DNA from: Isosphaeraceae bacterium | GTDB taxonomy: Bacteria; Planctomycetota; Planctomycetia; Isosphaerales; Isosphaeraceae | Reading direction: 5' to 3' | Assembly: GCA_025356475.1 (NCBI GenBank) | Contig: JANXSX010000103.1 | Coordinates: 1 to 41,795, forward strand | DNA length: 41,795 nucleotides | Shown: positions 36,382 to 41,795 of the stretch, one piece after another | Numbering within the stretch: the first letter of the stretch is position 1 | Layout: each line of letters starts with the position of its first letter | Notes under the pieces: generated by a model | Databases searched by the model: none | What the model saw: only the letters and a program-made list of their open reading frames with translations | Told to the model about the DNA's origin: nothing | Program-made: the position numbers and the translations under genes

Positions 36382-36568
36382 GCGGTCGACAGAGGAGATC
36401 GCGTCGACTGTCGTCTCTTGGAGATTGTTTAGAAATTCGCGCATGGTAACATGCAATCCGAGCAACCACTTGGGCTAGTGACTCAGTCGGGGTAAAGGAA
36501 ACGCTCCGCCTTAGTAAGCATTAGTCGTGTGCTCGATTGCCCTACCCGCCGGTAAACAGGATCTGACA

Positions 36569-39500
36569 ATGGCGAATCCCTTCTTCGAGCACCCAATCCT
36601 GAACTCACCTTATAAGCCGCCAGAAAAGCATTGGGAACTCGACGAACAAGGGCAGCCGACTCAAAAAATCATCGATTATCGTCGCAAAGCGGAATTCATC
36701 ACGCCTATCCCTAAGCCTAAGAAACGGAAAAAGGCGGCGAGCCAGGAAAACTTTGTCTTCGATGAAGGCAAAGGTTTATCGAACGAAAAACAACAATACG
36801 ACCCGACATCCATCATCAACCAGGTTCGTGAGCAGGTCGTCCGCTGGCGAGCTTGGCCAAACCCAAGTGACTGGCACGTCACACCAGAAACCGCCCGACT
36901 CTTGCAGTATTGGCGAGACCCGAATTTTGCGGGACTTCGACCGTTCTTCTGTCAGGTCGAAGCCATCGAAACCGCGATCTGGCTGACCGAGGTCGCGCCG
37001 CAGTCGAAGATCGGCAAAGCCCTGATCGAACACTTGAACGCTGCCAGCGAGGAGGCCAATCCCGACCTTCTTCGTCTGGCTCTTAAACTCGCCACAGGCG
37101 CTGGCAAGACCACCGTCATGGCGATGATTATCGCTTGGCAGACGATCAACGCAGTGCGCCGCCCAACCAGCAAAAACTTCACTCGCGGTTTCCTGGTGGT
37201 TGCCCCTGGCTTAACCATTAAAGATCGCTTACGTGTCCTCCAGCCCAGCGATCCTGACAATTACTATGACACTCGCGGGCTCGTGCCTGGCGACATGCTC
37301 GAAGACGTCAAACGAGCCAAAATCGTCATCACGAATTATCATGCCTTTAAGCTTCGCGAGCGTCTCGAAATTGCCTCTGGAACCCGGGCCTTGCTGCAAG
37401 GCCGTGGCGACGAACTCGATACGCTTGAAACCGAAGGGCAGATGATTCAACGCGTCATGCCCGACCTCATGGGCATGAAGAACATCCTCGTGCTCAACGA
37501 TGAGGCGCATCACTGCTATCGCGAAAAGCCCGAGGAAGCCGATGACGAAGAACTGAAGGGCGACGAGAAAAAAGAAGCCCAGAAGAACAACGAAGCGGCC
37601 CGGCTCTGGATCGCAGGCCTGGAAGCCGTGAATCGTAAGCTCGGCCTGCTTCGGGTCATCGACCTATCCGCGACTCCGTTTTTCCTCCGTGGCTCAGGCT
37701 ACGCTGAAGGCACGCTGTTTCCCTGGACCATGAGCGACTTCTCGCTCATGGATGCCATCGAGTGCGGCATCGTCAAACTGCCCCGCGTACCAGTTGCCGA
37801 AAATATCCCCGGCGATGAAATGCCGGTTTTCCGCAACCTCTGGGAAAATATCCGCAAGGAAATGCCCAAGAAGGGACGCGGCCAAGGCGAAACCCTCGAC
37901 CCGCTCAAACTGCCGACCCGCCTGCAAACCGCACTCCAGGCCCTTTACGGTCACTACGAGAAGCAGTTCAAACTCTGGCAAGAAAGTGGTATCTCCGTCC
38001 CACCTTGCTTCATCATCGTTTGCCAGAATACCGCGATTTCTAAGTTAGTGTATGATTTCATTTCCGGATTCCATCGAACCAATGACAACGGCACGACCAC
38101 GCTGGAACATGGTCGGCTTGCCTTGTTTCGCAACTTCGATGAGACGACCGGAAACCCTCTGCCCAAGCCCAACACGCTCTTGATCGATAGCGAGCAACTC
38201 GAAGCAGGCGACGCACTCGACGACAATTTCCGGGCGATGGCCGCCGACGAGATCGAACGGTTCCGTCGTGAGATTGTGGAACGCACCGGAGACCCGCGTG
38301 CGGGCGATAAAATCACCGATCAGGAATTGCTCCGCGAAGTCATGAATACCGTGGGGAAACCCGGTCAGCTTGGCGGTTCGATCCGGTGCGTCGTATCGGT
38401 TTCCATGCTCACCGAAGGCTGGGACGCTAACACCGTCACCCATGTTCTCGGTATTCGCGCCTTCGGAACGCAGCTATTGTGCGAACAAGTGATCGGCCGA
38501 GCGCTTCGGCGTCAATCCTACGACCTCAATGAAGAAGGCTTGTTCAACGTCGAATATGCCGATGTCTTTGGCATTCCGTTCGACTTCACCGCCAAGCCGG
38601 TCGTCGCTCCGCCACAGCCACCGCGTGAGACCATCCAGGTCAAAGCCGTGCGTCCCGAACGTGACGCTTTAGAAATCACTTTTCCACGTGTCGAGGGTTA
38701 CCGCGTCGAGTTGCCCGAGGAACGGCTCGATGCCGAGTTCAACGCCGATTCGACCCTTGAACTCACCCCCGACCTTGTTGGCCCGTCGATTACCCGCAAC
38801 GCGGGGATCATTGGCGAAGGCGTCGACATGAATCTCGAACATCTCGACAAACTCCGCTCTTCAACCATCCTCTATAACGTCACCCAACGGTTGCTTATGC
38901 GTAACTGGCGTGATCCCGGCGAAGAACCCAGGTTGCATCTGTTCGGTCAACTCAAACGCATCACCAAGCACTGGCTCGATACCTGCCTCGTCTGCAAGGG
39001 AGACACCTATCCCGGCCTGCTCATGTACCAAGAACTGGCCGACATGGCCTGCAACAAGATCACGGCAGGCATCACGCGCAAATTCGAGAAGGAACGCCCG
39101 ATCAAGGCGATGCTCGACGCCTACAACCCTAGCAGCTCGACCCGGTATGTTCGTTTCAATACATCGCGAACCGACCGTTGGGAAACGCGGTCAGACCGTT
39201 GCCAGATCAACTGGGTGATCCTCGACAGCGACTGGGAGGCGGAATTCTGCCGCGTGGCAGAGTCGCATCCCAAGGTGCGGGCTTATGTGAAAAACCATAA
39301 CCTCGGCCTAGAAGTGCCCTATCGGTATGGCTCGGTCATGCGAAAATACATCCCCGACTTCATCGTCCTGGTCGATGACGGACATCGGGAAAACGACTTG
39401 CTCCACCTGATCGTCGAAATCAAAGGCTACCGCCGCGAGGACGCGAAAGAAAAGAAATCGACAATGGAAACGTACTGGGTCCCAGGTGTAAATAACCTCA

Positions 39501-39637
39501 AAACCTACGGGCGTTGGGCCTTCTCGGAATTCACCGACGTTTACACGATCGGGACCGATTTTAAGGCGAAAGTCGAGAGCGAGTTCAATAAGCTCATCGA
39601 AAACGTGGTCACTCATGCCGAGAAGGTGACCGCATGA
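36569..39637 (+). CDS. Type III-like restriction helicase-nuclease (Res)
   Basis: A 1022-residue protein resembling the BPTD_3080-type restriction endonucleases. SF2 helicase motifs are in order: Walker A LATGAGKTTVM (residues about 174-184), DEAH box LNDEAHHCYR, motif III DLSATPFF, and motif VI CEQVIGRALRRQ. The C-terminal PD-(D/E)XK nuclease has YIPDFIVLVDD (Asp930) and LIVEIKGYR (Glu950, Lys952). Such enzymes translocate along DNA and cut unmethylated targets together with an adenine methyltransferase; the Mod-like gene about 1.3 kb downstream fits. ATG 36569 has AGGA 7 nt upstream; the in-frame codon at 36527 lacks support. The stop overlaps the next start (ATGA). Confidence 0.9.
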   Translation: MANPFFEHPILNSPYKPPEKHWELDEQGQPTQKIIDYRRKAEFITPIPKPKKRKKAASQENFVFDEGKGLSNEKQQYDPTSIINQVREQVVRWRAWPNPSDWHVTPETARLLQYWRDPNFAGLRPFFCQVEAIETAIWLTEVAPQSKIGKALIEHLNAASEEANPDLLRLALKLATGAGKTTVMAMIIAWQTINAVRRPTSKNFTRGFLVVAPGLTIKDRLRVLQPSDPDNYYDTRGLVPGDMLEDVKRAKIVITNYHAFKLRERLEIASGTRALLQGRGDELDTLETEGQMIQRVMPDLMGMKNILVLNDEAHHCYREKPEEADDEELKGDEKKEAQKNNEAARLWIAGLEAVNRKLGLLRVIDLSATPFFLRGSGYAEGTLFPWTMSDFSLMDAIECGIVKLPRVPVAENIPGDEMPVFRNLWENIRKEMPKKGRGQGETLDPLKLPTRLQTALQALYGHYEKQFKLWQESGISVPPCFIIVCQNTAISKLVYDFISGFHRTNDNGTTTLEHGRLALFRNFDETTGNPLPKPNTLLIDSEQLEAGDALDDNFRAMAADEIERFRREIVERTGDPRAGDKITDQELLREVMNTVGKPGQLGGSIRCVVSVSMLTEGWDANTVTHVLGIRAFGTQLLCEQVIGRALRRQSYDLNEEGLFNVEYADVFGIPFDFTAKPVVAPPQPPRETIQVKAVRPERDALEITFPRVEGYRVELPEERLDAEFNADSTLELTPDLVGPSITRNAGIIGEGVDMNLEHLDKLRSSTILYNVTQRLLMRNWRDPGEEPRLHLFGQLKRITKHWLDTCLVCKGDTYPGLLMYQELADMACNKITAGITRKFEKERPIKAMLDAYNPSSSTRYVRFNTSRTDRWETRSDRCQINWVILDSDWEAEFCRVAESHPKVRAYVKNHNLGLEVPYRYGSVMRKYIPDFIVLVDDGHRENDLLHLIVEIKGYRREDAKEKKSTMETYWVPGVNNLKTYGRWAFSEFTDVYTIGTDFKAKVESEFNKLIENVVTHAEKVTA

Positions 39638-39768
39638 CCTATGATCGCTCGCCGACTGATTATTCCTTGTTTCTTGAACACTCTGTTCAAGAAACCACAA
39701 TGAGCGGCCAACCAATTATGGAGCAGGCTGTTCCAGAAATCGTATACCATCTGGAGAACACACGATGA
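39634..39768 (+). CDS. 44-residue ORF coupled to Res and DinD fragment
   Basis: A 44-codon frame whose ATG overlaps the Res stop (ATGA at 39634-39637) and whose stop overlaps the dinD start (ATGA at 39765-39768). Such double coupling suggests it is translated. The peptide starts MTYDRSPTDYSLFLEHS and ends IVYHLENTR. It is acidic, with no helix-turn-helix, membrane segment or cysteine. It contains a strong hairpin in its RNA. No family is recognised; it may be the remains of a longer gene or a small regulator of the operon. Confidence 0.5.
   Translation: MTYDRSPTDYSLFLEHSVQETTMSGQPIMEQAVPEIVYHLENTR
39669..39695. repeat. 11-bp inverted repeat with 5-nt loop in the coupling ORF
   Basis: GTTTCTTGAAC (39669-39679) and GTTCAAGAAAC (39685-39695) pair exactly around actct. 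The structure lies just after the Res stop codon, so it could control passage of ribosomes or polymerase from Res to the downstream genes, or serve as an operator-like palindrome. Confidence 0.7.
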
Positions 39769-40073
39769 AAACCGAACTTATTCAATCGCTGACGGAAACG
39801 TTCGAAGGGCACGCACAGCAAACAGAAACGGGTGTCGAATACTGGCTCGCACGTGATATTCAGCATTTGCTTGGTTATAGCGAGTGGCGAAATTTTCAGG
39901 CCGTGATCACCAAAGCAAAGACGGCCTGCGAAGTGTCGGGCCACCAGGTGGGTGACCATTTTGTTGACGTCGGGAAAATGGTCGATCTCGGCTCCGGTCG
40001 TCACCGTTCTTTCACACTTCCAGTAAGATCGAGAGAAAGTAAGCAAATCGACAGGATGAACACTAAGAATTAG
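39765..40073 (+). pseudogene. Truncated dinD (DNA damage-inducible protein D) fragment
   Basis: The first about 80 residues match the N-terminal Bro-N-like region of DinD: EYWLARDIQHLLGYSEWRNFQAVI, then KAKTACEVSGHQVGDHFVDVGKMVDLGSG. Complete proteins are about 270-300 residues. At RHRSFTLPV the match stops, and the frame runs 20 more codons through DNA related to the nearby repeats (aaatcgacaggatgaac). DinD-type genes often accompany restriction-modification operons. This one was probably cut when the GxxExxY/repeat module arrived, and the rest of the gene is not found downstream. A short functional form cannot be excluded. Confidence 0.75.
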
Positions 40074-40082
40074 GAAGATCTG

Positions 40083-40493
40083 ATGGAACATCAAGACTTA
40101 ACAGAAGTGATCATCGGCTGTGCGATGACCGTGCATGGCACACTCGGAGCGGGCTTCCTCGAGTCCGTCTACCAAAATGCTTTTGCCCATGAGTTGCGCA
40201 AAGCAGGTCTACATGTCGAAGTTGAGAAGCCGATCAAGGTCACTTATGACGGCGTCGTCGTTGGCGAGTTTTACGCGGACATGCTTGTGGAATCAAAGAT
40301 ACTTATCGAAAACAAGGCCGTTCAAGCGATGAGCATTGTCCACGAAGTGCAAACGGTGAACTACCTCACGGCGACCGGCATTGATGTCGGCCTGCTCCTG
40401 AATTTCGGTGCGAGTCGTCTCGAATTCAAACGAAAGCACCGTACCTACCTACAAAGAAGACAGCAGGAAAATGAACCAAATCAAGACTCTTGA
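40083..40493 (+). CDS. GxxExxY family protein
   Basis: A 136-residue protein of the GxxExxY family (TIGR04256), named for its N-terminal motif, here GFLESVY (residues about 23-29, after IIGCAMTVHGTLGAG). Later blocks are VEVEKPIKVTYDG, FYADMLVESKILIENKAV and LLNFGASRLEFKR. The Asp of FYADML and the Glu and Lys of ILIENKA make a PD-(D/E)XK-like set, so a nuclease-related fold is likely; the function is unknown. Family members are frequent in planctomycetes and often sit beside imperfect 'aggatgaacagg' repeats. Its stop codon lies at the first repeat here. AGGAAG lies 5 nt before the ATG. Confidence 0.92.
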   Translation: MEHQDLTEVIIGCAMTVHGTLGAGFLESVYQNAFAHELRKAGLHVEVEKPIKVTYDGVVVGEFYADMLVESKILIENKAVQAMSIVHEVQTVNYLTATGIDVGLLLNFGASRLEFKRKHRTYLQRRQQENEPNQDS

Positions 40494-40912
40494 CAGGATG
40501 GACAAGATCAACAGGATGACAAATCGATAAGACTCAATAAGGGATGGGCGAAACTGATTTCTTATCCTGTCAATCTTGTCCATCCAGTCCAAATCTTAAG
40601 CCGTTCATGGAGTGAGAGAATACCCTTTGACAAGATCAACAGGATGACAAATCGACAAGACTCAATAAGTAATGGGCGAAACTGATTTCTTATCCTGTCA
40701 ATCTTGTCCATCCTGTCCAAAGCTCAGGCCGTTTATGGAGTGAGAGAATACCCTTTGACAAGATCAACAGGATGACAAATCGACAAGACTCAATAAGTAA
40801 TGGGCGAGACTCATTTCCTATCCTTATCCTGTCAATCTTGTGCATCCTGTCCAAAGCTGAAGCCGTTCATCCTGTCCGCGAATCAGTCACGTTCATCCTT
40901 TGAGAGAATTTC
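40492..40912. repeat. 128-bp tandem repeats with inverted arms
   Basis: About three tandem units with exact 128-bp spacing: gacaagatca recurs at 40501, 40629 and 40757. The third unit has a 6-bp insertion and diverges after about 40870. Each unit contains an inverted repeat. In unit 1, 40492-40517 pairs with 40564-40589 with three mismatches in 26. The arms are made of shorter runs of the form caggatg/catcctg. The block joins the GxxExxY stop codon to the methyltransferase start and supplies the latter's ribosome-site region (TTTGAGAGAATTT). It is not a CRISPR array, as the units abut without variable spacers. Confidence 0.9.
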
Positions 40913-40913
40913 C

Positions 40914-41795
40914 ATGGCCAAGAAATCCGCTCCCAAGAAAACCGTCGAAACCCTGAAACATGCCGAGAGCACGCGCAAGAATATCCCGACTGCCGAGTTT
41001 CAATCCGTGGTGAAGCAAGAGCAGCAAACCCCGATTCGCGTGGCCTACGACCGTCGCAATCGCGACCTTGATCCCCAGCTCGTCTGGCGGGGGAAGGACG
41101 AACAGGATTGGTCCGACCTCGTCGTGCATGCGCCGCCGCTGTATATCCAGGAAAAGGTCCAGCCCAAGTTCTTGATCGACGACCTCCTCCGCAAAACCGC
41201 CAAGGCCGAGCGTGACGCCGATCCCCAGCCCTTTCTGTTCGCCGACATGTATGACGACTTCAATGGTATGCCCGATGGTGCCGACAAAACCGACTTCTAT
41301 CAGCACGACCAAAACTGGACCAATCGCATGATCCTGGGCGACTCGCTCCAGGTGATGGCCAGCCTCGCCGAACGCGAAGGGCTGCGCGGCAAGGTCCAGT
41401 GCATTTATTTTGACCCGCCCTACGGCATCAAGTTCAACAGCAATTTCCAGTGGTCCACCACCAGCCGCGACGTGAAGGATGGCAAGGCCGACCACATCAC
41501 CCGTGAGCCCGAGCAGGTGAAAGCCTTCCGCGACACCTGGCGCGACGGCATCCACAGCTATCTCACTTACTTGCGAGATAGACTAACAATAGCTCGCGAC
41601 TTACTTACCGACTCCGGCTCTATCTTCGTGCAGATTGGAGATGAAAATGTTCACCGCGTCCGGGCAGTGATGGATGAGGTGTTCGGGGAGGACAATTTCT
41701 GCTCAATCATCCAAGTTCAGAAAACGGGAAGCCAAGCGGGAACACTCTTGGCGAACACCGTCGATTTCCTCCTTTGGTTTGCGAAATCAAAATCC
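40914..41795 (+). CDS. Adenine-specific DNA methyltransferase (Mod-like), partial
   Basis: The first 294 residues of a gene that runs beyond the window. After a lysine-rich start (MAKKSAPKKT) and an about 130-residue leader domain, the methyltransferase core begins at WTNRMILGDSLQVMASL. The catalytic motif IV YFDPPYGIKF has DPPY at residues 167-170. DNLT/SGSIFVQIGDENVHRV then follows, with the order typical of beta-class N6-adenine methyltransferases, in which the SAM-binding motif comes later (beyond the window). It should protect the sites cut by the Res protein. ATG 40914 has GAGAG about 9 nt upstream. It is separated from Res by the dinD remnant, GxxExxY and the repeats. Confidence 0.9.
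   Translation, partial: MAKKSAPKKTVETLKHAESTRKNIPTAEFQSVVKQEQQTPIRVAYDRRNRDLDPQLVWRGKDEQDWSDLVVHAPPLYIQEKVQPKFLIDDLLRKTAKAERDADPQPFLFADMYDDFNGMPDGADKTDFYQHDQNWTNRMILGDSLQVMASLAEREGLRGKVQCIYFDPPYGIKFNSNFQWSTTSRDVKDGKADHITREPEQVKAFRDTWRDGIHSYLTYLRDRLTIARDLLTDSGSIFVQIGDENVHRVRAVMDEVFGEDNFCSIIQVQKTGSQAGTLLANTVDFLLWFAKSKS

Follow-up and report, generated by a model that had tools for sequence, protein, structure and literature searches.

The described systems that come closest to the locus analysed here combine a small gene with inverted repeats. RAYT and TIRYT transposases are found with REP sequences, in the arrangements named REPtrons and TIRtrons, and the RAYT protein cleaves single-stranded REP DNA (PMC3733652). 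A different case is the intervening sequence (IVS) of the Coxiella 23S rRNA, in which an S23 ORF is enclosed by terminal inverted repeats that pair into a 28-bp stem (PMC4990558). The locus presented in this work is situated near the end of a stretch of 41,795 nucleotides from an Isosphaeraceae bacterium (contig JANXSX010000103.1, positions 1 to 41,795), hereafter the window, and it consists of a GxxExxY gene accompanied by repeated, hairpin-forming DNA. Judging from sequence comparison, we consider that the GxxExxY gene and its arms probably constitute a small mobile cassette (rough probability 0.6), comparable in its organization to REP/RAYT, with a nuclease of the PD-(D/E)XK type and not of the HUH type.

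The gene lies within a restriction-modification (R-M) operon, all of it on the + strand. The upstream restriction subunit (res), of the BPTD_3080 family, occupies positions 36527-39637 (NF046055, 1380 bits) and is followed by a remnant of dinD at 39765-40073, which retains about 80 of 288 aa (PRK11525 positions 1-83 of 288). The GxxExxY (PDDEXK_3) gene, encoding 136 aa, is located at 40083-40493 (PF13366, 5.8e-39; TIGR04256, 7.5e-41), and a DNA methylase (mod; N6_N4_Mtase) starts at 40914 and continues past the window end at 41795 (PF01555, 2.6e-15). Before the GxxExxY gene there is a left arm remnant, CAAATCGACAGGATGAACA (40044-40062, + strand), with direct and inverted matches to the repeat units found behind it. 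The initial annotation of this DNA had noticed related sequence at the dinD break and had concluded that the gene is bracketed by related DNA, and both observations were confirmed. Between res and dinD, at 39669-39695, there is also an inverted repeat with perfect 12-bp arms (GTTTCTTGAACA / TGTTCAAGAAAC) separated by a 3-bp loop, which is operator-like or terminator-like. The same genome holds a partial second match to the methylase (G000:C149:25035-25451, 83% over residues 154-292).

Behind the gene, TRF located the strongest tandem array of the window at 40501-40870 (+ strand), with a period of 128, 2.8 copies, 91% matches, and a score of 602. Copies 1 and 2 are 94% identical and ungapped, and copy 3 is 82% identical to copy 2, with indels. 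Three head-to-tail 128-bp units with imperfect palindromic arms, beginning at the GxxExxY stop codon, had been proposed from the sequence, and this description proved to be correct: the first arm overlaps the TGA at 40491-40493, and the two arms of hairpin 1 (40492-40589; arms 40492-40525 and 40556-40589, an inverted match), of 34 nt each, are 85% complementary. Hairpin 2 (40629-40722) has its left arm from 40629 and its right arm at 40684-40722, with direct and inverted matches, and the more diverged hairpin 3 (40757-40856) has its left arm from 40757 and its right arm at 40826-40856. The folding energy of hairpins 1 and 2 was far below that of shuffled controls (z -7.3 and -4.7, resp.), and hairpin 3 folded less well on the + strand (z -1.4 versus shuffled). 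The arms are built of ACAGGAT or ACAAGAT units at 9-bp spacing, the opposite arm reading ATCCTGT, and a single extra right-arm box, GTTCATCCTGTC, with inverted matches, is present at 40865-40876 (+ strand). The caggatg/catcctg runs of which the units had been said to consist are there, but each 128-bp unit is more than that, comprising one complete hairpin with both arms and, in addition, about 34 bp similar to the downstream methylase leader. Direct-repeat copies of this leader were located at 40602-40635 (+ strand), at 40730-40763 (97%), and, at the methylase start, at 40890-40923 (74%). Against Rfam, the window repeats gave no match above gathering score, and only sub-threshold microRNA hairpin matches appeared.

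A whole-genome search placed the three-unit array only at the GxxExxY locus of the source genome; as to the further copies that the initial annotation suggested looking for, gene-less hairpins do exist in genomes of the phylum, and the source genome has no other array of this type. The nearest relative by protein (L213, 77% identity) has one hairpin at the corresponding locus. Taking into account this single hairpin and the inclusion of the methylase leader in the unit, slippage or unequal exchange explains the array most simply, and it is a local tandem amplification of hairpin and methylase leader, that is, a secondary event.

The window protein is well above the curated cut-offs (133.5 bits versus 22 for PF13366 and 139.1 versus 35 for TIGR04256). 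Its profile matches were to PDDEXK_3 / GxxExxY models only, and no HUH tyrosine transposase was found in the window cassette. The residues D66, E76, and K78, which correspond to the catalytic residues of the PD-(D/E)XK enzymes, were invariant in 48 of 48 sequences, as were G22, G24, L26, E27, Y30, N107, and F108. An AlphaFold2 model (mean pLDDT 89.7) had as its best solved fold match SSO0001 (4ic1; Foldseek E 6.5e-5; Z 10.9 over 99 residues), which we take to be a Cas4 nuclease, followed by alkaline exonucleases, lambda exonucleases, and other PD-(D/E)XK enzymes. According to the model, GxxExxY is predicted to be a PD-(D/E)XK nuclease like Cas4 and lambda exonuclease, a shared fold and motif being no proof of DNA cutting. 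A PDB sequence search with the window protein gave no significant relative, and no relative was found in phage records. The source genome has a single GxxExxY gene (whole-genome search), and the family is present in 139 of 294 sampled genomes of the phylum. In the genomes with multiple GxxExxY genes (L323-L349) there are often broken copies, with stops or as fragments, as would be expected for a selfish element.

Inverted arms of short tandem units were observed on nearly all of the 30 top-scoring GxxExxY genes of the phylum, the unit sequence varying by element (CACAGAG, CGCAGAG, CACGGAG, CACGAAG, CATGAAG, and others). The arms were evaluated by local alignment of the 250 bp upstream with the reverse complement of the 250 bp downstream, with a threshold score of 30. 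The median score was 44.5 in the top-30 set and 38 in 79 loci of other origin, and at other positions of the loci, compared in the same geometry, it was 19. Scores of 30 or more were obtained for 81/109 GxxExxY loci, which were picked for high score and many of which come from MAGs, versus 5/100 neighbouring ORFs (OR 55, p 5e-27). Random positions gave about 1%, and these two controls rule out chance as the source of the matched arms. The bracketing first noticed in the window is thus general for GxxExxY genes across phyla, and repeats do flank other members of the family, a point which the initial annotation had proposed to check, with a unit sequence that differs between elements. About a quarter of the GxxExxY genes were without matched arms under this test, which counts against the cassette reading. 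The set covers Planctomycetota, Verrucomicrobia, Bacteroidota, Chloroflexota, Cyanobacteria, Proteobacteria, Spirochaetes, and one Methanosarcinales archaeon, and CACAGAG-type arms were seen on two of the four plasmid records inspected, one of them in Bacteroides.

The units are degenerate, with a dominant length of 8, 9, or 10 bp, and the arms end in ACCAC..GTGGT or GACAGG..CCTGTC. The left-right k-mer similarity was 0.65 within an element versus 0.10 between elements, a figure partly built in by the preselection of elements for matching arms, which does not affect the covariation with the protein. Arm distance was correlated with protein distance (Mantel r 0.33, p 0.0005, n=81); this covariation of the sequences fits recognition of the arms by the protein and could also reflect joint inheritance. 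Proteins similar to that of the window (69-77% identity) have ACAGGAT arms or hairpins in Isosphaeraceae, in Verrucomicrobia, and in a proteobacterial MAG, and ACAGGAT hairpins were located at L213-L217. As a general arm motif ACAGGAT was discarded, since a search of the top GxxExxY flanks for it came back empty and other unit sequences were found instead. Many ACAGGAT matches in viral contigs resemble coding repeats (collagen-like and similar) rather than hairpins; in the count of array-to-gene proximity, three array loci adjoin GxxExxY and none lies in viral contigs.

A parallel arrangement was observed for the four-helix-bundle genes (TIGR02436, S23/IVP; L293-L322), of which 23 out of 30 had matched inverted arms whose units are mostly 7 bp long (TTAGTGG, TAGTTGT, AGGGGTT). 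Nearest-neighbour typing separated these arms from those of GxxExxY in 96/104 cases. At L312 a four-helix-bundle gene has arms of the GxxExxY class (CACGGAGG units), and an exchange between the two systems is possible.

The arms are also dispersed without the gene. The arm pattern ACCACRGAGNCACRGAG had 1412 matches, distributed over 59/294 genomes with a maximum of 467 in a single one, and the reversed pattern had 2. Many of the listed matches form inverted pairs at distances of 30-250 bp, leaving no space for the gene. A gene-less hairpin upstream of a second groEL is conserved in three species and absent from the fourth, a sister species. Next to the GxxExxY gene of L046 and that of L057 there are several same-type hairpins that have no gene, as in the window array.

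The presence of the hairpins in a genome follows that of the gene. The ACAGGAT pattern was found in 28 genomes, 25 of which have GxxExxY, and arms occurred in 36% of the genomes with GxxExxY versus 6% of those without (OR 9.1, p 6e-11, the p-values of this tracking overstating independence because the genomes are interrelated). Y1 (IS200/RAYT-type) transposases had an OR of 3.1 with the arms when taken alone and of 1.6 once GxxExxY was included, the conditional OR for GxxExxY being 7.9. GxxExxY was not detectable in five genomes with three or more arm matches, including a complete genome that has 43 of them; this counts against the cassette reading, and it implies that the hairpins can persist after loss of the gene or spread by another route. 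The initial annotation held that spread of the repeats independently of GxxExxY genes would speak against a role of the protein. Such gene-less spread does occur, but the strong tracking at the genome level, considered together with it, fits mobilisation in trans rather than independence.

It might be argued that other machinery, either an IS200/RAYT-type transposase or replication slippage, spreads the hairpins, and that GxxExxY is cargo lying between two of them. The hairpins are far more numerous than the genes, a few genomes are rich in them and have no gene, and the four-helix-bundle genes are flanked by hairpins too, all of which would be in agreement with a passenger. Nevertheless, we regard this as unlikely, considering that a Y1 transposase adds little when GxxExxY is present (arms in 34.6% of the GxxExxY genomes without Y1 and 36.3% of those with it), that the 8-10-bp arms of GxxExxY and the 7-bp arms of the four-helix-bundle genes belong to different classes, and that the arm type covaries with the protein.

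Comparison of orthologous sites showed the gene and its arms to be present or absent as a unit. In the groEL-dnaJ intergenic region, the arrangement arm-gene-arm is present in two genomes of one genus, and a third genome of that genus is without gene or arms, its flanking DNA being 93% and 89% identical; three further relatives also lack both, which gives four empty sites in all. Upstream of argH the cassette is present in two genomes and absent from six relatives. At this latter spot (L390-L403), where several of the six have hairpins of another kind, unrelated hairpins are found depending on the species, namely, the GxxExxY cassette, 7-bp-unit hairpins, and GC-rich hairpins, so that the spot resembles a slot for hairpins; part of the pattern could then be a property of the site, which counts against the cassette reading. 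In the R-M operon of the window, res is followed directly by mod in three relatives (L412, L415, and L416), and in L414 a full-length dinD stands between res and mod, the cassette being absent. It is noted that the intact dinD of L414 (634-1490) runs directly into the mod start, which suggests that dinD is an accessory gene of this operon. In the window only the first ~80 codons of dinD are left, and the cassette occupies the place of the lost remainder. In L213 the GxxExxY gene and its one hairpin lie between a res remnant and mod, and in the 69% relative, from the proteobacterial MAG, dinD, hairpin, and GxxExxY are found together. Empty sites in relatives, whose absence would have weighed against the initial annotation, were hence found at groEL-dnaJ, upstream of argH, and at the R-M locus of the window. 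No clean target-site duplication was seen, the empty and filled intergenic regions being too diverged to define one, and G122 and G217 were too rearranged in their large-scale synteny to be used for comparing empty sites. No strain-level jump was seen, which counts against the cassette reading.

These sites also bear on the idea that GxxExxY is a homing endonuclease that entered the loop of pre-existing hairpins, the hairpins being its target and not its offspring. Homing enzymes of the PD-(D/E)XK type exist, the gene does sit within an inverted pair, and gene-less hairpins are common; considering, however, that the empty sites at groEL-dnaJ and argH have no hairpin of the same type, and that the res-mod relatives have none of that type either, we find homing quite improbable. 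Even less credit can be given to an element acting at the RNA level, with arms forming an RNA stem cut by RNase III and with mobility as a secondary matter. The inverted repeats and S23 ORF of the Coxiella IVS (PMC4990558) offer a precedent and the window hairpins fold strongly as RNA, but both the window cassette and those filled sites that were read closely are located between genes for proteins, outside rRNA, and the DNA of the relatives is without the gene and arms as a unit. Finally, the notion that the window repeats are mere local tandem amplification with a regulatory or terminator effect on the methylase, unlinked to GxxExxY, would suit the leader copy in the 128-bp unit and the single hairpin of the closest relative, and it is scarcely tenable, given that this relative keeps its hairpin beside GxxExxY and that matched arms flank GxxExxY genes generally.

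We therefore return to the mobile cassette. What is seen in the sequences is the arms, their left-right match, their covariation with the protein, presence or absence as a unit, the dispersal of the hairpins, and their tracking of GxxExxY; direct action of the protein on the arms, in moving or cutting them, is plausible by analogy. Two inverted arms of degenerate tandem 8-10-bp units bracket a single nuclease gene; in the proposed mechanism, the cassette would insert into intergenic DNA, with gene-less derivatives (single hairpins of ~60-130 bp) spreading alongside it, as REP hairpins do beside RAYT genes. By analogy with the action of RAYT on REP DNA, the nuclease may recognise and nick arms folded as single-strand hairpins, probably exposed in replication, and replication or repair synthesis by the host might then copy the cassette or the hairpin to a new site. 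In the window, a cassette of ACAGGAT type would have entered the res-dinD-mod restriction operon, the 3' two thirds of dinD would have been lost, and the hairpin on the right, together with the methylase leader, would subsequently have been multiplied by slippage or unequal exchange until three copies were present.

By its sequence features, the GxxExxY cassette appears to be a tiny mobile element of an undescribed kind which also seeds gene-less hairpins. More tentatively, and with somewhat less than even confidence, it could represent an unrecognised class of mobile elements, found across many phyla of bacteria and in at least one archaeon; its single-domain PD-(D/E)XK nuclease would mobilise its own gene and gene-less hairpins by means of arms of tandem 8-10-bp units that drift in concert on both sides, with a parallel four-helix-bundle system of 7-bp units. 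We found no described role for GxxExxY, despite its presence in nearly half of the sampled genomes of the phylum, and if gene and arms are a mobile unit, the family would be explained. A large class of unexplained intergenic hairpins, with up to 467 arm matches per genome, would also be accounted for, and a transposition-like system without a classical transposase would be at hand. The concerted match of left and right arms, with units differing between elements, is a puzzle in itself, now testable. The open-licence PMC literature gave no description of GxxExxY arms, and the novelty, being judged on that literature, is provisional.

When compared with known systems, REP/RAYT is similar in that inverted repeats enclose a small gene, numerous gene-less hairpins with the same sequence are scattered in intergenic DNA, and the families vary by species. 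Unlike RAYT, which is an HUH tyrosine transposase, GxxExxY belongs to the PD-(D/E)XK enzymes, and whereas REPs end in GTAG, the GxxExxY arms have no GTAG tag and are made of tandem 8-10-bp units of drifting sequence. Gene-less inverted-repeat units sharing their arms with a gene-bearing element recall a MITE and its helper transposase, and terminal inverted repeats together with absence as a unit from orthologous sites recall insertion sequences and MITEs; unlike a MITE system, the cassette has no recognised transposase, its arms are degenerate tandem repeats, and a target-site duplication is not defined here. The cyanobacterial STRR heptanucleotide repeats are dispersed arrays of short degenerate units, and their 7-bp units are nearer to the four-helix-bundle arms; we know of no description of them as paired inverted arms around a gene. 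With Cas4 SSO0001 and lambda exonuclease, GxxExxY shares the predicted core fold and the D...ExK motif, but it has ~20% identity or less, it is a single 136-aa domain, and it is found here with no CRISPR or recombination operon. Lastly, the 23S rRNA IVS with S23/IVP (PMC4990558) likewise carries a small ORF within a long inverted stem and has been hypothesised to be mobile; in contrast to the window cassette, which lies between res/dinD and mod, it resides in rRNA, is excised by RNase III, and encodes an unrelated protein.
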